Shown here: piece by piece, positions 26,801 to 39,718 of the stretch
Position numbering within the stretch: the stretch's first letter is position 1
How the letters are laid out: each line of letters starts with the position of its first letter
NCBI RefSeq assembly: GCF_030863805.1
Contig: NZ_CP132957.1
Coordinates: 1-64,000, forward strand
Reading direction: 5' to 3'
DNA from: Kineothrix sp. MB12-C1
GTDB lineage: Bacteria; Bacillota; Clostridia; Lachnospirales; Lachnospiraceae
Length of the DNA stretch: 64,000 bases
Program-made: the position numbers and the translations under genes
Notes under the pieces: generated by a model
What the model was told of the DNA's origin: nothing
Databases searched by the model: none
Seen by the model: only the letters and a program-made list of their open reading frames with translations

Positions 26801-28263
26801 ATGGATAAAATAAGAACGAGATATGCGCCGAGTCCTACAGGACGCATGCATGTAGGCAATTTAAGGACAGCATTGTATGCTTATTTAATTGCAAAGCATG
26901 AAGGAGGAGATTTCCTTCTTCGTATTGAGGATACTGATCAGGAACGTTATGTGGAAGGCGCAGTGGAAATCATCTACCGTACGATGGAAAAGACGGGACT
27001 GATTCACGATGAAGGCCCTGATAAGGATAAGGGAGTAGGTCCTTATGTTCAGAGCGAACGTCAGGCACAAGGAATTTATCTGGAATATGCGAAGCTGCTA
27101 ATTGAAAGAGGAGAGGCCTATTATTGCTTTTGTGATAAGGAAAGACTTTCTTCTTTAACCCAGACTGTAGCCGGTAAAGAGATTAATATATATGATAAAC
27201 ACTGCTTACATTTATCCAAAGAAGAAGCGGAAGGGAAGCTCAAATCAGGAATTCCCTATGTTATCAGGCAGAACAATCCCACGGAAGGAACAACGACCTT
27301 TCATGATGAAATATATGGAGATATTACCGTAGATAATACGGAACTTGATGATATGATACTCATTAAGTCCGACGGCTACCCGACTTACAATTTCGCTAAC
27401 GTTGTGGATGATCACTTGATGGGAATTACACACGTAGTAAGAGGAAATGAATATCTTTCTTCTTCTCCGAAATATAACCGTCTTTATGAGGCGTTTGGCT
27501 GGGAAGTGCCTGTTTATGTACACTGTCCGCTTATTACCGATGAGGACCATCATAAGCTGTCCAAACGCAGCGGTCACTCTTCGTATGAAGATTTGGTAGA
27601 ACAAGGATTCTTATCGGAAGCAATCGTTAACTTCGTTGCGTTGCTCGGATGGAGTCCGGAAGGTACAGAGGAAATATTCTCGTTAGAGGATTTGATTCGG
27701 GTATTTGACTATAAGCATCTATCCAAATCCCCTGCCGTGTTCGACTATACGAAGTTAAAGTGGATGAATGGCGAATATATGAAAGCAATGGACTTCGACA
27801 GGTTTTATCAGATGGCGGAGCCATATTTGAAGAAGGTCATTAAGAAGAGCCTGGATTTAAAAAGATTGCTGAGATGGTAAAAACGAGAATTGAAGTATTT
27901 CCCGATATCGAAGGAATGATAGACTTTTTCGAAGAGTTGCCAGCCTACGATACTTCTATGTATATTCATAAGAAAATGAAAACAACAGAGGAATCATCGC
28001 TGGAAGTATTGGAAGAACTGCTTCCCCTTGTTGAAGAGCAGGAAGCTTTCAATAACGATTCTCTCTACCAGATGCTTGTTTCTTATGTGGAGAAAAAGGG
28101 CTGTAAAAACGGTTATGCGATGTGGCCGATTCGAACAGCGGTATCCGGCAAACAGATGACGCCTGCCGGAGCGACGGAGATTATGGAGATTCTCGGGAAA
28201 GAGGAGTCCATCCGTCGGATTCAGAAAGGTATTGAGCTGTTAAAAGATGCTGGCAGCAAATGA
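26801..28263 (+). CDS. gltX: Glutamyl-tRNA synthetase GltX, one frameshift
   Basis: GltX charges tRNA(Glu), and possibly tRNA(Gln) for later amidation. The Rossmann domain has [20 protein letters not shown] with HVGN as the HIGH motif, [12 protein letters not shown], then a CFC...HC zinc-like cluster in the insertion. [19 protein letters not shown] and HHKLSKRSG (KMSKS motif) follow. The anticodon-binding domain continues in a second frame after a missing A near 27862 (SLDLK then [13 protein letters not shown]) and ends [11 protein letters not shown]. The joined product is about 487 residues, normal length. The stop overlaps the helicase start by 17 nt. Confidence 0.93.
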
Positions 28264-30120
28264 AAATAAGGCGCAGACCTTAGCAATAGAGCACGCTTCC
28301 GGTCCCCTGCAAGTTCTTGCAGGGCCGGGGAGCGGCAAAACATATCTTACTATCCGTCGAATTCGTCATCTGATTCGGCATCATGGGATATCTCCCGATC
28401 ATATTCTTGTGATTACATTTACAAAAGCAGCGGCAATGGAGATGAAGGAACGTTTTTCTGCTCTGACACAGCAGGCTTATCCCGAAGTCCGTTTCGGTAC
28501 TTTTCATGCGATCTATTATCATATTCTCAAACAATCGGGCTATTCAGGCCTGAGAATAATTACCCTCAAGGAAAAGCGAAACTATATCAACCATATTTTG
28601 CGTGAAATAAAAAGTGGAGAAGCAGAAAACGCAGAACTATGTAACGAACTGATTAAAAGTATCGCTCATATTAAAATAAATGGCGGATGTTCTGAAGATA
28701 TGGAGAGTGTAAGTTTCTTTTATGATTTTGAAGAAAAGATAAAGGAACAATTTCCATTTATCTATAACGAATATTGTCGTATGATGAGAGAGGAGAATAA
28801 AATTGACTTCGATGATATGATTCTTTTATGTGATAAACTGTTAGAAGAAAGACCTGAAATCCTTTCCTTTTGGCAGAATACTTTTACTCATATTTTAGTC
28901 GACGAATTCCAGGATATTTCCCCTATGCAGTACCGTATTTTATGCCGACTTGCACTTCCTCAGAATAATTTGTTTGTAGTGGGAGATGATGACCAATCAA
29001 TTTATGGGTTTCGCGGTGCAGGTCCCGGTATTATGAAGCAGTTTATGGAAGACTATGCACAGGCTTCACAGTTAACGCTTACTATCAACTACCGAAGTGG
29101 TCCTCATATTGTAGAAGCTGCAGGAATGGTCATTAATGGTAATAAGGAACGTTTTTGAAGGAGCTGAAAGCAAATAAGGCCGAGGGAGGCACGGTTAGCA
29201 TCATTTCTTTTTCTACGAGAGAAGAGGAGCTTGCCTATCTTTCCGGTCAATTGCGAGGTAAAACAATAGAAGAACTTACTCAAAGTGCAATTATTTATCG
29301 CACCAATGCAGAGGTTGGTGCTTTATCCCGAACGCTAGCCTCCCTTCGGATTCCTTTTCATATGAAAGAGAGAGGAACGCATCTCTTTCAGCATGCGGTG
29401 GCGAAAGATATGATAGCGGTTCTTTCTTTTGCCAGGGATGTTTTTATAGGGGGTAAAAAGGGTGGAAATCGGAGTGATTTCCTTCGTTTCATGAATAAGC
29501 CATCCAGGTATATTAGCAGACAAGCAATTCCCGATCCACTGATAACGGAGCAATTATTACTCGATTATTATAAAGGCTTGGGAAGCTCTTCGCACTCCAA
29601 TATGGGAATGCAAGAGACTGTAAAGCAATTATGGAGGGATCTTAAGAGAATTTCTTCGCTCCGCCCTTATCTTGCTATCGATTATATTTGCAAGAATATG
29701 GATTATAAAAAGTACATATGTGAAGGCAAAGACAAAGAAGAGAGAAAAGAAATGGAAGAAATCTTACAGGAACTGCAAAAGGAAGCGATAAAATATCGTA
29801 GTTTTTCTGCATGGAAAGAGGCGATCGATGAATATGTATCGCTGATGGAACGGGCAGGGAAAGAACCGGAACAAAGGGAAGGTGTTCAGCTTCTGACGAT
29901 GCATGTTTCCAAAGGATTGGAATATAATAATGTCTATCTTCTGGATATCGGAGAAGGGAAGATGCCCGGGAAACGAGCGATAAAACCGGAGGAAATAGAA
30001 GAGGAGCGAAGGCTTCTTTATGTGGCTATGACAAGAGCCAAGGAACATCTTGAAATTCTATATTGCAACGAGCCATCGGCATTTATCGTCAAATTAAAAA
30101 AGACTCTTGACGGCAAATGA
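28247..30120 (+). CDS. UvrD/Rep-type superfamily 1 DNA helicase, one frameshift
   Basis: This is a 3'-5' SF1A helicase of about 625 residues. Motifs are visible: VLAGPGSGKTYLTIRR (Walker A), ITFTKAAAMEMKER (Ia), FGTFHAIYYHIL, ILVDEFQDISPMQYRIL (Walker B), VVGDDDQSIYGFRGA (III), INYRSGPHIV (IV), LLTMHVSKGLEYNNVYLLDI (V) and RRLLYVAMTRAKEHLEI (VI). A missing T in the run at 29147-29154 splits it; the correct junction reads RFLKELKANK. At about 625 residues it is shorter than PcrA (about 730) and lacks PcrA's C-terminal extension. It may act in repair or plasmid-type unwinding; the partner is unknown. Confidence 0.88.
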
Positions 30121-30502: not shown

Positions 30503-30702
30503 AAAAACTCCTTTCTTTTCCGGTAGTTCAGATTTTATTAACATTGATAGCATGTTATATGTCTTTATTGTACTAGTGCACCAAACATTAATCAATAATT
30601 TTTTCCGTATTTTTACACATAAAAAATTTTTTATGATATACTTTAAAAATGACACAGGCAGAATATGCAGAAAAATGCGGATATTAGCGGATGGAGGAAA
30701 AT

Positions 30703-32628
30703 ATGTATACAATTGACAGAAATGCAATAGGCAGACCGTATCCGTTAGGAGTGACAATAGAGAATAATCGTACTTATTTTTCGGTTGCTATGAAAAGTGA
30801 GATGGAGTGTGAAACATTTTGTACGATAAAAATGTAAAAGAAGAGACGAGAATTCCTTTTGACAGGATAAATAAATTCGGCTCTATATTTTGTATGGTAA
30901 TTAAAAACCTGGATGCTAAAAGATATGAGTATAATTTTTATGATGGAGGACGTATTGTTACAGATCCCTATGCCAAAGTCATCTGTGGCCATTCTAAATG
31001 GGGAACTTGTGATGAGGTGCTCAGAGGTGGATTTCTCATAGATTCTTATGACTGGGAGGAAGATGTTCTTTGAAGATTCCTTATTCAAACAGCATCTTGT
31101 ACTGTTTGAATGTGCGGGCCTTCACGAAGCATAGGTCATCGGGAATCGCTCATAAAGGAACTTATCAGGGCCTTATAGAAAAAATTCCTCATTTAAAAGA
31201 ACTCGGCATTACGGCGGTGGAACTAATGCCTGCTTATGAATTTAATGAGGTGAGAAGTAAAGAGGAGCGTGTCTATTCTTCTCAGGCAGCTACAATGGAA
31301 GAAGCGATACAAAGACTTGCCCTTCCTATGGAAGGCTTGAAAGAAGAAGGCTCCGAAAAGAAGAACGATATAATTGCTGGGGATATATAGAAGGCTATTA
31401 TTTTGCTCCCAAAGCAGCATTTAGTTTTCATAAGGATGCTTCCATAGAAGTAAAGGATATGGTAAAGGAGCTGCACCGGAATGGAATAGAAGTGATTCTA
31501 CAATTCTATTTTCCGAAATCTGTAAAGCCGGGACTTATTCTGGATGCCATCAAATATTGGGTGTTGGAATATCACATTGATGGCGTACATCTAAAGGGGG
31601 AGAGAATTCCGCTTCATGTTATAGCCACAGATCCTTTACTTTGCGAGACTAAGATATTCTATGATTATTTTCCTTTCGATGATATTTATGGAACACAGGA
31701 ACCGGCATATAAAAATCTTGCCATTTATAAGGATGATTATATGTATGCGGCACGGCGTTTCTTAAAGGGTGATGATAATGCTCTTTCCTATTTTATGGAG
31801 TTACAGCGTCAGAACCCTTCTCGTCACGGTATCATTAATTATGTGACGAATTATTACGGGTTTACGTTGACCGATATGGTTTCCTACGATAGGAAGCATA
31901 ATGAAGACAATGGGGAAGACAATGAGGATGGGAATGATTATAACTTCACATGGAATTGTGGTGTCGAGGGAATTACGAGAAAGAAGACAGTTCAGGAGCT
32001 TCGCCTCAGACAGATAAAAAATGCGCTTGTTATGCTTTTTTCGGCCCAGGGAACTCCGCTTATTTATAGTGGAGATGAGCTGGGGAATACGAGATATGGG
32101 AACAATAATCCCTATTGTCAGGATAATGAGATTGGTTTTATAAAATGGAATATGACCGGAATGGGGAAGAAAATTTTTTCTTATATGAAGGAACTGATTG
32201 CGTTGAGAAGGCAACATCCGGTGCTTCGCAATGAGAAGGAATTTAAGATTCTCGATACGATGGGCTGCGGCTATCCCGATATTTCTTACCATGGAGAAGA
32301 AGCGTGGCGGCCGGATTTCGGAGGTCACAGCCGTTATGCAGGAGTGATGTACTGCGGATTCTATGGGAAAACTGCGGAAAAAAAAGATGACAATTTCTTT
32401 TATATCGCCTATAATATGTATTGGCTTCCCAGCACTTTCGCGCTTCCGAAGCTACCCAAAGATATGGAATGGTGTCTGCTTACGGATACGAGCGAAACCA
32501 GCAATAAAATAGAAGAAGAAATGCAGATACAGGGAGGAGCAAGACCGCGCATCGAAGTACCTCCGCGTACAGTTCATATTTACATTTCAAGACAAAAGAA
32601 AGGACGTCACATCAAAAAAGGCAGTTAG
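30703..32628 (+). CDS. GH13 isoamylase/GlgX-fold protein lacking catalytic residues, frameshifted in its N-terminal half
   Basis: The fold is clear: an N-terminal CBM48-like part (GRPYPLGVTIENNRTYFSVA), then YCLNVRAFTKHRSSGIAHKG and HLKELGITAVELMPAYEFNE, then FTLTDMVSYDRKHNEDNGED, WNCGVEG, and LFSAQGTPLIYSGDELGNT, all as in glycogen-debranching GlgX/TreX. However, region I reads VILQFYFPKS instead of D-x4-NH, region II DGVHLKG instead of DGFRxD, and region IV NYVTNYYGF instead of TAHDGF. The nucleophile and transition-state Asp are absent, and no clear general acid was seen. These sites lie in the uninterrupted frame 31459-32628. Three frameshifts affect only 30830-31390. GGAGG precedes the ATG at 30703. 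Confidence 0.82.
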
Positions 32629-33163: not shown

Positions 33164-33231
33164 ACATTGAAAAAGTAACCCTTTATGAGATGGCACATAA
33201 AATAAAGCATATCATAAAGGAGTTGAAAAAT

Positions 33232-33573
33232 ATGAATTGTCTTATTTTATTACTTTTACTTTGTTGCTGTGGCAATAATAATGGTGTGGGCGGCGATACG
33301 GATTGGAACCGGAAACCTTGCGGACGAAATGATGACGTACGTAGAGGTAATGCAGGCTGCAATGATACAGGCCGTGGAAATGTTTCGGGCAACAGAGGCA
33401 GTACATGGGGATGCAGTGAGGATATTCCGGACAAAAAGCCTTGTGAAGATGATAGAGGGTCACGTCCGGAGCAGCGCTTTGATAACAGACAGATGAATGA
33501 ATTCTATGGTGATGATTTGCGCAGAGGATATAATCCCTATGCTCAGGGAACTACATGTGGATGTGAAGAGTAG
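33232..33573 (+). CDS. Small Cys/Gly/Asn-rich protein, unknown function
   Basis: This is a 113-residue protein that begins MNCLILLLLLCCCGNNNG, a short hydrophobic stretch with a Cys triplet. The rest is polar, rich in Gly, Asn, Arg and Asp with scattered Cys, and ends TTCGCEE. AAAGGAG precedes the ATG at 33232; the upstream ATG at 33190 lacks a ribosome binding site. The start resembles Cys-rich small proteins seen in related Clostridia. A lipoprotein or spore-associated role is possible but not shown. It is followed by a strong terminator. Confidence 0.6.
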   Translation: MNCLILLLLLCCCGNNNGVGGDTDWNRKPCGRNDDVRRGNAGCNDTGRGNVSGNRGSTWGCSEDIPDKKPCEDDRGSRPEQRFDNRQMNEFYGDDLRRGYNPYAQGTTCGCEE

Positions 33574-33727: not shown

Positions 33728-34732
33728 ATGATAGATGGTAAAAAGATACTTTTCAGCGGAATGCAGGCAACGGGAACCTTGACTCTCGGTAATTATCTGG
33801 GTGCACTTAAGAATTGGGTGACCTTAAGCGACGAATATGAATGTTTTTATTCCGTTGTAGACTTACATTCCATAACAGTCCGCCAGGACCCGGCGGAGCT
33901 TCGCAAAAGAGCGAGGAACTTACTGACCTTATACATTGCGGCAGGTTTGGATCCGAAGAAGAATTGTATTTACTATCAATCTCATGTATCCGGACATACA
34001 GAACTTTCATGGATATTGAATTGTTTTACTTATATGGGTGAGCTGAACCGCATGACACAGTTCAAAGACAAGTCTTCCAAACATGCGGATAATATCAATG
34101 CCGGCCTTTTCACTTATCCGGTACTTATGGCTGCTGATATTTTATTATATCAGTCGGATGTAGTTCCTGTTGGAAAGGATCAATTACAGCATTTGGAAAT
34201 CACAAGAGATATCGCACAACGCTTTAATGCGATTTACGGAGATGTATTCACCGTTCCGGAGCCTTATATCGGCAAATCGGGCGCTAAAATTATGAGTCTG
34301 CAAGATCCGGTTAAGAAAATGTCCAAATCCGATGAGAATCCTAATGCGAGTATTTATTTGATGGACGATCCGGATACGATTATCCGCAAATTCAAGCGAG
34401 CGGTAACGGATTCGGAAGGGGCTGTAAGATATAGGGAGGAACAGCCGGGTATTCGTAATCTTATCGATATTTATTCCACATGTACCGGAAAGAGCGCAGA
34501 GGAAGTGGAGAAGGAGTTCGACGGCAAGGGATACGGCGATTTCAAGCTTGCGGTAGGCGAATCCGTAGTGAGTGTGTTAAAGCCTGTGCAAGAATGTTAT
34601 CAGGAACTGCTTCAGGATAAAACATATATCGATGCCGTAATCAAAGAGAATGCGGATAAGGCGAATTATTATGCGACTAAGACCTTGCGTAAGGTTCAGA
34701 AAAAAGTAGGATTCCCTGAAAGAATCCGCTAA
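33728..34732 (+). CDS. trpS: Tryptophanyl-tRNA synthetase TrpS
   Basis: TrpS is a class I synthetase charging tRNA(Trp). The 334-residue product has ILFSGMQATGTLTLGNYLGA with TLGN as the HIGH motif, then FYSVVDLHSITV, MAADILLYQSDVVPVGKDQL, QHLEITRDIA and VKKMSKSDENPNA with the KMSKS loop. The ATG at 33728 follows GGAGG, 6 nt upstream. The frame is intact. It has its own promoter. The next gene follows after 13 nt and may be cotranscribed. Confidence 0.96.
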   Translation: MIDGKKILFSGMQATGTLTLGNYLGALKNWVTLSDEYECFYSVVDLHSITVRQDPAELRKRARNLLTLYIAAGLDPKKNCIYYQSHVSGHTELSWILNCFTYMGELNRMTQFKDKSSKHADNINAGLFTYPVLMAADILLYQSDVVPVGKDQLQHLEITRDIAQRFNAIYGDVFTVPEPYIGKSGAKIMSLQDPVKKMSKSDENPNASIYLMDDPDTIIRKFKRAVTDSEGAVRYREEQPGIRNLIDIYSTCTGKSAEEVEKEFDGKGYGDFKLAVGESVVSVLKPVQECYQELLQDKTYIDAVIKENADKANYYATKTLRKVQKKVGFPERIR

Positions 34733-34745
34733 ATAAAACGCAATT

Positions 34746-35492
34746 ATGGATGAAAAGCGATTTGAAGAAGCAAAAAATAAAATAATCGGTATCCAAAGAA
34801 GCCGCGCAGGAATCGGAACTTTACAGGAAAAAACGGTACATGCAGTTTTAAAGAATTATTATGCTCCGGACGAAACAACACATGAGATTGTGTTGGAGCA
34901 TTATGTTGCGGATATTTTCACGGGTAAGGAAATCATAGAGATCCAAAATGGGAATTTCAATAAAATACGTACGAAATTAGAGGTATTTTTGGAACGACAT
35001 CCGGTAACAGTCGTCTATCCGATTCCTCATACGAAGTGGCTTATTTGGATCGATGAAGAGACGGGAGAATTTTCGAAGAAGAGAAAGAGTCCGCGGACAG
35101 GCAGCGCTTATCAGGCATTTAAGGAACTCTACCGTATTAAATCCTACTTAAAGCATGGAAACCTGAAGTTTTGTTTTCCCTTAATGGATGTGGAGGAATA
35201 TCGCCTGTTAAACGGATGGAGTGCCGATAAAAAGAAGGGTTCTTGCCGCTATGACAGGATTCCGGTGGCCTTATTCGATGAAGTAATTATCGAAAGAAGG
35301 GAAGATTATCTGCAGTTTCTGCCTTATGAGCTTCCTGTTACTTTCACTTCAGCGGATTTGGTGCAAACGGCTAGGATTCCGCTAAAAACGGCTCATCTTG
35401 TTCTAAATATTCTTTATTTTATGGAGGTGGTAGAGCGGATCGGGAAAAGCGGCCGCTCTTATTTATATAAAATTGCCGATGATTTGTCTTGA
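34746..35492 (+). CDS. Uncharacterised protein, PD-(D/E)XK nuclease-like with C-terminal winged helix
   Basis: This is an intact 248-residue protein that I do not recognise as a named family. The N-terminal part has Glu28 (TLQEKTVHAVL), Asp56 (VADIFTGKEI) and the EIQ triad at 65-67, a spacing compatible with a PD-(D/E)XK nuclease core in which Lys is replaced by Gln. The C-terminal part, TSADLVQTARIPLKTAHLVL, then NILYFMEVVERIGKSGRSYL, looks like a winged helix-turn-helix. No good ribosome binding site is visible; it starts 13 nt after trpS. Nuclease activity is inference only. Confidence 0.6.
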   Translation: MDEKRFEEAKNKIIGIQRSRAGIGTLQEKTVHAVLKNYYAPDETTHEIVLEHYVADIFTGKEIIEIQNGNFNKIRTKLEVFLERHPVTVVYPIPHTKWLIWIDEETGEFSKKRKSPRTGSAYQAFKELYRIKSYLKHGNLKFCFPLMDVEEYRLLNGWSADKKKGSCRYDRIPVALFDEVIIERREDYLQFLPYELPVTFTSADLVQTARIPLKTAHLVLNILYFMEVVERIGKSGRSYLYKIADDLS

Positions 35493-35530
35493 GATGGAAG
35501 GGAACATTCGGGCAAAACAAGAAAAAATGA

Positions 35531-35559
35531 TGTGACTGTGAGGGTACTGAACAGTTACA
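35531..35559. repeat. Dispersed intercistronic hairpin element, copy 3
   Basis: TGTGACTG and CAGTTACA arms (one G-T pair) flank the 13-nt loop TGAGGGTACTGAA, nearly identical to the loop at 574-586. It lies between the nuclease-like gene and miaB. Confidence 0.7.
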
Positions 35560-35608
35560 AAATGATTATGATATACGTCAGAAATTAGAAGAGGAGTAAG
35601 AGATTTTT

Positions 35609-37015
35609 ATGACACAACAGACAGAAAAGGACCGCCAGTTTCTCTTTATAGAACAAGCGAAGGAATATGTGGATAAACTGGCAGAGCAGCTTGGGAGAAG
35701 ACCTCTCTGCAATGTAACAACATTTGGTTGTCAGATGAATGCCAGGGACTCTGAAAAATTGTCCGGTATTTTAGAGCAAGTAGGCTATGAGCTGGTGGAT
35801 ACGGAAGATGCCGACTTTGTTATTTACAATACATGTACTGTTCGGGATAATGCGAATCAGAGAGTGTATGGGCGGCTTGGATTTTTAAATAGCATGAAAA
35901 AGAAGAAGCCTCATATGAAAATTGCGTTATGCGGGTGCATGATGCAGGAAGACTTAGTGATCGAAAAGATTAAGAAGAGTTACCGTTTTGTAGATTTGAT
36001 TTTCGGCACTCATAATATTTTTAAATTTGCGGAACTATTGTGTACGATGTTTGAATCTGACGATATGGTAATCGATATATGGAAAGATACGGATCAGATT
36101 GTAGAAGATTTGCCGGTGGAACGAAAATACTCGTTTAAATCGGGGATTAATATTATGTTCGGCTGCAATAATTTCTGCAGCTATTGTATTGTTCCTTATG
36201 TAAGGGGAAGAGAACGAAGCCGTAATCCGAAGGATATTATAAGGGAAATAGAGAATCTGGCGGCCGATGGCGTAGTAGAAATTATGTTGCTCGGACAGAA
36301 TGTAAACTCATATGGAAAAACGTTAGAGGAACCGATGAGTTTTGCTCAACTTCTTCGCGAAGTGGAGAAAGTGGATGGTATTGAGAGAATCCGTTTTATG
36401 ACCTCTCACCCTAAGGATTTATCGGAGGAATTGATTCAGGTAATGAAGGAGTCCAAGAAGATATGTCGTCATCTTCACCTTCCTCTCCAATCGGGTTCCA
36501 CCCGTATACTAGATGCGATGAATCGCCGTTATACGAAGGAACAATATCTTGCGATAGCGGAGAAGATAAGAAAAGAAATTCCTGATATGGCCATTACGAC
36601 GGATATTATTGTCGGTTTCCCGGGAGAGACACTTGCGGATGTGGAAGAGACGATAGAGGTAGTGAAAAGAGTGAAGTATGATAACGCCTTTACCTTTATT
36701 TATTCCAAGCGCACAGGAACACCTGCCGCAGCGATGGATAATCAAGTATCACAGGAAGTGGTAAAAGAAGGATTCGATAAGCTTTTAAAAATTGTACAGG
36801 AAACGGCGAGAGAGCGTGCGAGTATGTTGGAGGGGCTTACAGTCTCTGCATTGGTGGAAGAAATAAACGAACAGGATTCCTCCCTCGTAACAGGAAGACT
36901 TTCGAATAATACGATCGTACATTTTCCGGGCAATCAATCTTTCATCGGGAAAATTATGAATGTGAAATTAAAAGAATGCCGCGGTTTTTATTATACAGGG
37001 GAATTGGTTGATTGA
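35609..37015 (+). CDS. miaB: tRNA-2-methylthio-N6-isopentenyladenosine synthase MiaB
   Basis: MiaB is a radical-SAM enzyme that adds a methylthio group to i6A37 of tRNA. The 468-residue product has the N-terminal UPF0004 domain (VTTFGCQMNARDSEKL, YNTCTVRDNANQRVYGRLG, ALCGCMMQ) whose three Cys bind the auxiliary cluster. The radical-SAM CNNFCSYCIVPYVRGRE motif follows, and a C-terminal TRAM domain comes after SMLEGLTVSALVEE. ATG 35609 follows GAGGAG. Its substrate is made by MiaA, encoded four genes downstream in the same unit. Confidence 0.97.
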   Translation: MTQQTEKDRQFLFIEQAKEYVDKLAEQLGRRPLCNVTTFGCQMNARDSEKLSGILEQVGYELVDTEDADFVIYNTCTVRDNANQRVYGRLGFLNSMKKKKPHMKIALCGCMMQEDLVIEKIKKSYRFVDLIFGTHNIFKFAELLCTMFESDDMVIDIWKDTDQIVEDLPVERKYSFKSGINIMFGCNNFCSYCIVPYVRGRERSRNPKDIIREIENLAADGVVEIMLLGQNVNSYGKTLEEPMSFAQLLREVEKVDGIERIRFMTSHPKDLSEELIQVMKESKKICRHLHLPLQSGSTRILDAMNRRYTKEQYLAIAEKIRKEIPDMAITTDIIVGFPGETLADVEETIEVVKRVKYDNAFTFIYSKRTGTPAAAMDNQVSQEVVKEGFDKLLKIVQETARERASMLEGLTVSALVEEINEQDSSLVTGRLSNNTIVHFPGNQSFIGKIMNVKLKECRGFYYTGELVD

Positions 37016-37021
37016 TAATGA

Positions 37022-37037
37022 GTAACTGTTCAGTTAC
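37022..37037. repeat. Short palindrome related to the dispersed hairpin, copy 4
   Basis: GTAACTG and CAGTTAC arms are separated by only TT, in the miaB-mutS junction. The arms match copies 1-3 exactly, as if the 13-nt loop had been lost. Confidence 0.6.
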
Positions 37038-37072
37038 GCTAATAAACTTATGAGAAACAGAGGGGAAGAAAA

Positions 37073-39718
37073 GTGGCAGAGTTAACTCCTATGATGCAAC
37101 AATATATGGATACGAAAAGAGAATACAAAGATTGTATTCTCTTTTACCGGCTTGGTGATTTCTATGAAATGTTTTTCGAAGATGCGTTAACCGCTTCTAA
37201 GGAATTGGAAATCACTTTAACTGGGAAAAACTGCGGGCAGGAGGAGCGGGCTCCTATGTGCGGAGTGCCTTATCATGCGGTGGAAGGATATTTGAATAAG
37301 CTAGTATCCAAAGGCTATAAGGTGGCTATCTGCGAGCAAGTAGAGGACCCAAAGCTCGCAAAGGGCATTGTAAAAAGAGAGGTAGTTCGTGTTGTAACGC
37401 CCGGTACGAATTTAAATGTTCAAGGTTTAGAGGAGACACAGAATAACTATTTGATGTGTATTTCTTATTTTCCCAATGCAATAGGAATTTCTATCGCCGA
37501 TGTTACGACCGGTGATTACTATTTAACGGAAGTCGATGATCTGCGCAGGCTTTTGGATGAAATTAACAAGTATATGCCGTCGGAAATTATATGCAACGAT
37601 GCTTTTTTAGTGAGCGGTGCAGATATTGATGATTTAAAGAATCGTTTAGGCATTACGGTATATTCGCTGGAATCCCATTATTTTGACGATGATGCTTGCA
37701 GAAAATGTCTGATGAAGCATTTCCAAGTTCAGATGCTGACAGGACTGGGAATTGAGGATTTTCCCGTAGGACTGATTGCGGCGGGTGCGCTTTTGCAGTA
37801 TTTGTACGAGACGCAGAAGACCTCTCTTTCTCATTTCCTTCATCTATACCCGTACCTTACGAATAAATATATGCTCCTCGACAGTTCCACAAGGCGAAAT
37901 CTTGAATTAACTGAGACCTTGCGCGAAAAGCAAAAAAGGGGTTCTTTGCTATGGGTACTGGATAAGACGAAAACAGCTATGGGCGCGAGAACGCTTCGAA
38001 CTTATATCGAACAGCCCTTAATCGATTTACAGGAGCTTACGATGCGCCAGGATGCTATCGAGATTCTTTGCACCCATTCGGTATCCAGGGATGAAATCAG
38101 AGAGTATTTGAATCCCGTTTATGACTTGGAACGTCTGCTTAGTAAAGTGAGTTATAAGACGGCCAACCCGAGAGACTTGATTGCTTTTCGTAATTCGCTC
38201 GAAATGTTGCCCCATATGAAGACGGTATTGCAGGATTTGGATAGTGGACTGCTGAAGAAAATAGACAGCGATATCGATGGCCTTGAAGATATCTGTCAGT
38301 TAATCGAACAGGCGATTGCGGAAGAATCGCCTATCGCTGTAAAAGAAGGCGGTATCATAAAGGAAGGATTCGATGAAACAATCGATCATCTGCGCCATGC
38401 GAAGACGGAAGGTAAGAATTGGCTGGCACAGTTGGAGCATGACGACAGAGAGCGGACAGGAATTAAAAACCTCCGTATCAAATATAATAAAGTCTTCGGC
38501 TATTATTTCGAAGTCACTAATTCTTATATAAGCATGGTACCTGAGGATTATATTCGCAAGCAGACCCTTGCCAATGCCGAGAGATACACGACCCCTCGGT
38601 TAAAGGAACTGGAAGACACTATCCTGAATGCGGAAGATAAATTATACGCGTTGGAATACGAGATGTTCTGTAAGGTGAGAGATGCGATTGCTGGTGAAAT
38701 TGAGAGGATTCAGAAGACTGCAAAGGCGGTGGCTGCCCTCGATGTATTCGCCTCGCTATCATTGGTGGCAGAGAGGAATCAATATGTTCGTCCGAAAATA
38801 AATGAAAAGGGTCTTATCGATATAAAGGACGGGCGTCATCCCGTGGTAGAGAAAATGATCGTGAATGATATGTTTATTTCAAACGATACCTACTTGGACA
38901 ATAATAAAAATTGTATTTCTGTCATTACAGGCCCTAATATGGCAGGAAAGTCCACCTATATGCGGCAGGCGGCGCTTATCGTGTTGATGGCGCAGATTGG
39001 AAGTTTTGTTCCTGCTTCCAGTGCCAATATCGGCATTGTAGATCGGATATTTACAAGGGTAGGAGCTTCCGATGACTTAGCCAGTGGGCAAAGTACCTTT
39101 ATGGTGGAGATGAACGAAGTGGCAAATATTCTAAGGAATGCCACACAAAATAGCCTTCTTGTGCTGGATGAAATCGGGAGAGGAACCTCTACCTTCGATG
39201 GACTTAGTATCGCCTGGGCCGTTATTGAGCATATTAGTAATCGCAAGTATCTCGGTGCCAAAACCTTATTCGCTACCCATTATCATGAATTGACCGAATT
39301 GGAAGGTAAGATGAATAATGTAAATAATTATTGCATTGCGGTGAAGGAAAAGGGCGATGATATCGTATTTCTTCGAAAGATCGTTAAAGGCGGTGCGGAT
39401 AAAAGTTATGGTATTCAGGTGGCAAAGCTGGCCGGTGTCCCGGATATTGTGATTGATCGTGCGAAAGAAATCGTGGAGCAGCTTAGTGATAACGATATTA
39501 TGGAGAAGATACAGCATATTGCTGTGGATTATAAAACGGATAAAAAGCCAGTAAAGAAATACGATGAAGTGGATTTGGAACAGATTTCTCTGTTCGATAC
39601 AGTGAGTGATGAAGATGTTCTAAGGGAGTTGAAAGAAGTGGATGTTAGCAATTTGACACCGCTGGATGCTCTCAATATTTTGTATCGTTTGCAAAACAAG
39701 CTGAAGAACCGTTGGTAA
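37073..39718 (+). CDS. mutS: DNA mismatch repair protein MutS
   Basis: MutS recognises base mismatches and signals through MutL. At 881 residues it is full length. MMQQYMDTKREYKDCILFYR and LGDFYEMFFEDA are the mismatch-binding N-terminal domain with the Phe-x-Glu (FYE) wedge. The ATPase domain has ITGPNMAGKSTYMRQAALI near residue 620, LVLDEIGRGTSTFDG and FATHYHELTELE. The start is GTG at 37073 after AGGGGAAG. It is followed by mutL after 27 nt. The region has no frameshift. Confidence 0.97.
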   Translation: MAELTPMMQQYMDTKREYKDCILFYRLGDFYEMFFEDALTASKELEITLTGKNCGQEERAPMCGVPYHAVEGYLNKLVSKGYKVAICEQVEDPKLAKGIVKREVVRVVTPGTNLNVQGLEETQNNYLMCISYFPNAIGISIADVTTGDYYLTEVDDLRRLLDEINKYMPSEIICNDAFLVSGADIDDLKNRLGITVYSLESHYFDDDACRKCLMKHFQVQMLTGLGIEDFPVGLIAAGALLQYLYETQKTSLSHFLHLYPYLTNKYMLLDSSTRRNLELTETLREKQKRGSLLWVLDKTKTAMGARTLRTYIEQPLIDLQELTMRQDAIEILCTHSVSRDEIREYLNPVYDLERLLSKVSYKTANPRDLIAFRNSLEMLPHMKTVLQDLDSGLLKKIDSDIDGLEDICQLIEQAIAEESPIAVKEGGIIKEGFDETIDHLRHAKTEGKNWLAQLEHDDRERTGIKNLRIKYNKVFGYYFEVTNSYISMVPEDYIRKQTLANAERYTTPRLKELEDTILNAEDKLYALEYEMFCKVRDAIAGEIERIQKTAKAVAALDVFASLSLVAERNQYVRPKINEKGLIDIKDGRHPVVEKMIVNDMFISNDTYLDNNKNCISVITGPNMAGKSTYMRQAALIVLMAQIGSFVPASSANIGIVDRIFTRVGASDDLASGQSTFMVEMNEVANILRNATQNSLLVLDEIGRGTSTFDGLSIAWAVIEHISNRKYLGAKTLFATHYHELTELEGKMNNVNNYCIAVKEKGDDIVFLRKIVKGGADKSYGIQVAKLAGVPDIVIDRAKEIVEQLSDNDIMEKIQHIAVDYKTDKKPVKKYDEVDLEQISLFDTVSDEDVLRELKEVDVSNLTPLDALNILYRLQNKLKNRW

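Follow-up and report, generated by a model that had tools for sequence, protein, structure and literature searches.

We describe a catalytically altered paralogue of the isoamylase-type debranching enzyme GlgX, here called pseudo-GlgX, which is encoded in a 64,000-base window of Kineothrix sp. MB12-C1 (bases 1-64000 of its single 3.94-Mb contig). The whole gene spans window positions 30691..32628 (+ strand), and its clade was seen in Lachnospiraceae only. The explanation we favor, with moderate confidence, is a non-catalytic α-glucan-binding protein of glycogen metabolism, an old GlgX paralogue kept for another task. With the hydrolytic residues lost, the protein would not hydrolyse; it is presumably cytoplasmic, and no export signal was seen in it by eye. 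It would bind branched α-glucan through its retained GlgX surfaces and its N-terminal and C-terminal sandwiches and, by analogy with plant ISA2, might adjust the building or breakdown of glycogen in the role of a scaffold, a sensor or a non-catalytic subunit.

A first-pass annotation of the window had described an unbroken frame of 389 residues. This open reading frame (ATG start, 31459..32628, +) is indeed unbroken, but it is only a fragment. A protein search of the genome revealed a second, 100% identical copy near the far contig end, where the same residues form the C-terminal part of a 646-aa protein encoded in one unbroken frame (C1:3927242-3929182; L051:9243-11183). The final 38.7 kb of the contig is repeated in window 1-38769: over three compared stretches of 8-17 kb, identity is 96-98.6% and each stretch has 137-140 gap openings. 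We read the repeat as the overlapping ends of a circular chromosome, left untrimmed in an assembly with much noise. We rejected a genuine 39-kb duplication, given the position of the two copies at the ends of the contig and the high noise in part of the overlap. Within the pseudo-GlgX gene, the two copies differ by six mismatches and four indel events, all four indels lying upstream of 31459 and none inside 31459-32628. With an intact far-end copy and every indel ahead of 31459, the genome most likely has a single, unbroken copy of the gene, and the interruptions of its frame in the window are probably assembly errors. The altered sites are not due to the upstream indels, as had been argued from the window.

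Alignment to the canonical GlgX of the same genome (705 aa, with GFRFDLAS, LIAEAWD and FLTCHDGF) confirmed that all four catalytic regions are altered, and the three motifs quoted initially (VILQFYFPKS, DGVHLKG and NYVTNYYGF) were all located in the 389-aa frame. In region I, VILQFYFPKS (31492..31521, +), Asp is replaced by Gln, the Asn-His pair is absent and the ~44 residues that follow in GlgX are gone. Region II, DGVHLKG (31579..31599, +), has His for Arg and Lys for the nucleophile Asp. Region III, KIFYDYF (31651..31671, +), carries Asp at the position of the acid/base Glu, a site that is variable in the clade, and in region IV, NYVTNYYGF (31837..31863, +), His-Asp has become Tyr-Tyr. The triad positions (Asp of region II, Glu of region III, Asp of region IV) are consequently occupied by Lys, Asp and Tyr. 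Loss of hydrolysis in the altered clade would fit a passage on Streptomyces venezuelae GlgX, in which cyclic diguanosine monophosphate (c-di-GMP) could not stimulate variants at the equivalent Asp342 and Glu378 (PMC9530166).

The altered form is widespread in the family. Among 61 genomes (the own genome and 60 relatives), 39 match the 389-aa protein at E 0.001. All 28 orthologues read from other genomes (L022-L049) are of the altered type, while one match at 38% identity (L050) is canonical; among the remaining matches, those at 33-38% identity, mostly in frames of at least 700 aa, were taken as canonical. Profile A1 matched 127 of 150 Lachnospiraceae genera at E 1e-30, with an altered-type best match in 123, a set defined by a score threshold of ~390 bits in which all residues were then read. 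The 27 genera scored as lacking the pseudo form include G155, whose match (E 2.6e-94) is unclear in form. In a class-wide sample of 293 genomes, altered-type scores occurred in 11, all Lachnospiraceae; a 386-bit match with a 716-aa frame in another family (G472) was read as canonical-like from score and frame. Genera among the named loci, the best 80 of 593 relatives, comprise Butyrivibrio, Roseburia, Acetatifactor, Oribacterium and Velocimicrobium, some loci being assigned only to Bacillota, Clostridia or Clostridiales. Of 47 named pseudo loci, 38 entered the fold alignment A2 and 19 of those A3.

Orthologues with intact catalytic Asp and Glu, named at first pass as evidence to seek against the idea, were looked for: none of 184 altered-type sequences has the full triad, with no triad residue kept in 127, one in 52 and two in 5. 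The one-per-genus set (n = 123) gave the same picture (83, 37, 3 and 0 sequences with none, one, two and three residues). The nucleophile Asp is lost in 183 of the 184 sequences and kept in one, every sequence has a gap at the Asn-His pair of region I, and none retains more than three of eight inspected residues. These 184 sequences represent 180 distinct ones at 97% identity, four genomes having been entered twice. L036-L049 lie outside the set. Ten of their genomes are represented by sequences among the 123, whereas G016, G026, G031 and G033 are not and were read separately, with none keeping the triad. L104, which has a gap in region IV, was assigned to neither the altered nor the canonical group. 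Over the 150 genomes, a degenerate DNA pattern designed on region II proved unspecific and was not used. The expectation that orthologues share the same substitutions held in part: catalytic-site substitutions recur family-wide, but HLKG and YY are typical only of the own genus and its near kin, and genera beyond these carry other substitutions. Of the 15 sequences used for selection analysis (own and two near genera), 13 have HLKG in region II and one has HLLG, with the pattern unmatched in one.

All eight inspected residues are kept in 36 of 36 canonical GlgX proteins. Of these, 32 were chosen from named loci after their residues had been seen to be intact, the own GlgX and L050 were likewise known, and only the profile neighbours L161 and L197 were picked blind to residues. 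Because most were chosen for intact residues, they are no independent control. The independent result is the whole-protein tree (FastTree), which splits altered from canonical proteins exactly along residue state (support 1.0, branch 0.55). Judged from these sequences, the catalytic loss is old.

Purifying selection is indicated in the four close pairs that could be measured, where ω, the ratio of nonsynonymous to synonymous substitution rates, was 0.047-0.085; these are the pairs with synonymous divergence (dS) <2 among 105, the others being too diverged. The proposed status as a pseudo-glycosidase is strongly supported by this constraint, the recurrence of substitutions in orthologues and the missing triad. 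Columns conserved at ≥85% in the 123 hold the same residue as canonical GlgX, with three exceptions, Gln454, Asp523 and Asp531 (own-protein numbering), which differ from the commonest canonical residue. Kept stretches include WGY, KHNExNGExNxDG-SWNCGxEG, GDE-GNNNxYCQDN and PDxSxH. Two of the retained stretches, KHNEDNGEDNEDGNDYNFTWNCGVEG (31894..31971, +) and GDELGNTRYGNNNPYCQDN (32071..32127, +), have a core conservation about that of canonical GlgX. The clade has lost GlgX residues 283-326, which follow region I, together with shorter segments close to regions II and IV. We infer that the kept residues bind glucan.

Homology of the C-terminal part to GlgX, also asserted at first pass, was borne out by TIGR02100, which matches the 389-aa fragment at E 7e-64 (216 bits, cut-off 640.9). 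The full 646-aa protein reaches 291.7 bits, below this equivalog cut-off, while the own canonical GlgX lies just above it (644.1 bits). Because 19 of 44 genomes of the canonical GlgX type also lack a match over the cut-off, falling short of it is a weak criterion alone. Pseudo-GlgX is homologous to bacterial GlgX and archaeal TreX over most of its length, with the same domain order and common motifs after region IV; it differs in lacking the catalytic triad and the stretch after region I and in its TIGR02100 score. Predicted folds of an orthologue (L065) and of the window fragment match GlgX, ISA1 and plant ISA2. The fold is that of an isoamylase, built of a CBM48-like domain, a barrel and a C-terminal sandwich. 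In the window, the CBM48-like N-terminal sandwich falls on one frame piece (30819..31073, +), with a weak PF02922 match below the gathering cut-off (20.0 versus 22.4 bits), and the barrel start on a second (31070..31390, +; PF00128 21.8 bits, cut-off 22; TIGR02100 37.1 bits); the 389-aa frame holds the remaining barrel and the C-terminal β-sandwich. No CBM_48 match is listed for L065 at E 0.001. The structural match in the models supports the presence of a CBM48-like domain.

Plant ISA2 (GH13_11), a non-catalytic isoamylase subunit, is as far as is known always accompanied by an active isoamylase, a defining trait. The pseudo form is unlike it in that 82 of its 123 genera lack canonical GlgX at E 1e-110, and in being bacterial and seen in one family only. 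A passage of one study describes ISA2 as having at least four of five conserved catalytic-site residues changed, nucleophile included (PMC12510319), and at least four of five are changed in the window protein. The additional N-terminal β-sandwich that the passage places before CBM48 in ISA2 is absent here, the L065 model aligning to ISA2 only from ISA2 residue 144. Since pseudo-GlgX scores higher with ISA1 (222-240 bits) than with ISA2 (133-134 bits), the likeness to ISA2 is probably convergent. Pseudo-GlgX is like ISA2 in kind, yet it does without the extra domain and does not need an active GlgX, and neither the label ISA2 nor that of a debranching enzyme suits it. Other possible parallels come from published work. 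A review table marks some archaeal genomes with one inactive GH13 isoform (PMC11046441), a parallel drawn from the table entry. Butyrivibrio hungatei glgX2 (648 aa), annotated as a glycogen debranching enzyme (PMC5716241), fits the clade in size and second-copy status; it is likened here by description alone and was published as an enzyme. Its entry in an expression table (PMC6344614) was not used, as the locus tag differs from that in the genome paper and the sequence was unchecked.

Binding of a glycan as scaffold or sensor, suggested at first pass, is plausible because the conserved residues are shared with active GlgX and two genomes have the gene beside glgB and malQ. The orders are malQ-xth-pseudoGlgX-glgB in G145 (L266:2227-8829) and xth-pseudoGlgX-glgB-malQ in an Oribacterium metagenome-assembled genome (L095:7084-15651); the genomes are divergent, and the two pseudo proteins share 42% identity. 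Glycogen synthesis is available as context, with glgA in 149 of 150 genera, a distribution that cannot discriminate. Several points weigh against a glucan-binding role in glycogen metabolism. One or two triad residues are still kept in 57 of the 184 sequences, and the GNNN loop, which belongs to the retained surface, has a predicted local distance difference test (pLDDT) value <50 in both models. The 27 genera scored without the pseudo form suggest that it is dispensable to some, and 82 of 106 genera without canonical GlgX possess it. We know of no glycogen role for TraX and DUF5662, its commonest neighbours. The excess of glycogen genes nearby is modest and suggestive only: of 170 loci (168 distinct), 7 have malQ, glgB, glgA or canonical glgX in their vicinity, versus ~3 expected from rough, assumed gene counts (Poisson 0.03), and glgA is near none of the 170.

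A more specific version of the glucan-binding reading, which we hold only tentatively, makes pseudo-GlgX a family-wide bacterial counterpart of ISA2 that arose independently of plants, binds nascent glycogen and, partnered by GlgB or another glucan enzyme rather than GlgX, controls how the storage glycogen of Lachnospiraceae is branched or the state of its particles. Pairing specifically with active GlgX in a strict ISA2-like heteromer is unlikely. Canonical GlgX was detected in 44 of 150 genera (E 1e-110), and the pseudo form is more frequent in these (41 of 44) than in the other 106 (Fisher P 0.02, uncorrected for relatedness of genera); the two genes lie within 2 kb of each other in G153 and G158, and a passage on S. 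venezuelae GlgX reports antiparallel dimers in crystals (PMC9530166). Against this stand the 82 genera with a pseudo form and no canonical GlgX, which argue against a strict ISA2-ISA1-type partnership: the pseudo form is not simply a GlgX subunit, and active GlgX cannot be its sole partner.

We give a similarly low chance to repurposing, alongside TraX and DUF5662, for a role at the cell envelope or membrane, for example on a surface glycan rather than glycogen. In the window, a DUF5662 gene (PF18907; 32633..33163, +), the commonest operon partner, begins 4 bp downstream of the pseudo-GlgX stop. Among the 123 genera, same-strand downstream genes encode DUF5662 in 67, TraX in at least 34 and either in 86, as picked by eye among matches on the contig of the pseudo gene; clustering instead gave 59, 35 and 82. 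Genes that adjoin directly are separated by a median of 1 bp, both families are Pfam-confirmed on examples, and the pseudo-GlgX gene usually heads a tight operon with one or both. TraX is named a pilin acetylase family in Pfam and NCBIfam. Nearly every genus sampled has these genes, however (DUF5662 in 130 and TraX in 140 of 150), the presence of DUF5662 shows no association with the pseudo gene (Fisher P 0.36, 150 genera), and a TraX-DUF5662 pair stands side by side without pseudo-GlgX in G036 (C151:52-1216) and G180 (C96:1136-2313). The linkage may thus reflect shared transcription only, and retention of the GlgX motifs also speaks against an envelope role.

Still less probable is that the protein has gained another enzymatic activity, served by catalytic residues elsewhere in its sequence. 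The conserved non-canonical Gln454, Asp523 and Asp531 could be taken in its favor, but the old site has acquired no set of new acidic residues common to the clade, and residues there vary by lineage. A decaying pseudogene or base errors at the substituted sites, to which the broken window frame and noisy contig ends might point, was rejected as very improbable given the intact far-end copy, the absence of indels in 31459-32628, the occurrence in 123 genera and ω <0.09 in measurable pairs.

The GlgX-like protein is a presumably dead paralogue in most sampled genera of Lachnospiraceae, a major gut family. As GlgX is its best match among the NCBIfam models tested, annotation and glycogen-pathway reconstruction may count it as a debranching enzyme. 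If it does bind glucan, it would be a second, probably independent, non-catalytic isoamylase kept by selection and would offer a genetically simpler system than plants for studying the role of such proteins on branched α-glucan. No non-catalytic bacterial GlgX appeared among the literature matches listed, a scope outside which most subscription papers lie, and no paper among those listed contains the term ‘TraX family protein’ in Lachnospiraceae.

Further features were noted around the gene. At 17 of 123 loci, the gene immediately upstream, in the same orientation, encodes a Peripla_BP_4 binding protein (for example, L245:3357-4343); it overlaps or lies ≤24 bp away in 15 of the 17. The naming of uvrD and trpS genes, and of xth or ABC-F genes other than the Pfam-confirmed examples, is presumptive and based on the look of the sequence. 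Genes of window 1-38769 occur twice in the assembly, with indel noise: 89 indel events relative to the far copy fall in 34000-37999, versus 3-9 in the other 4-kb stretches compared. A helicase gene at 28247-30120, which we take to be of UvrD type, is split into two frames; because its contig-end copy is split at a different place, it is probably one intact gene. After DUF5662, an open reading frame for a 127-aa Gly/Asn/Asp-rich protein with cysteines (33190-33573) is the same in both contig-end copies.
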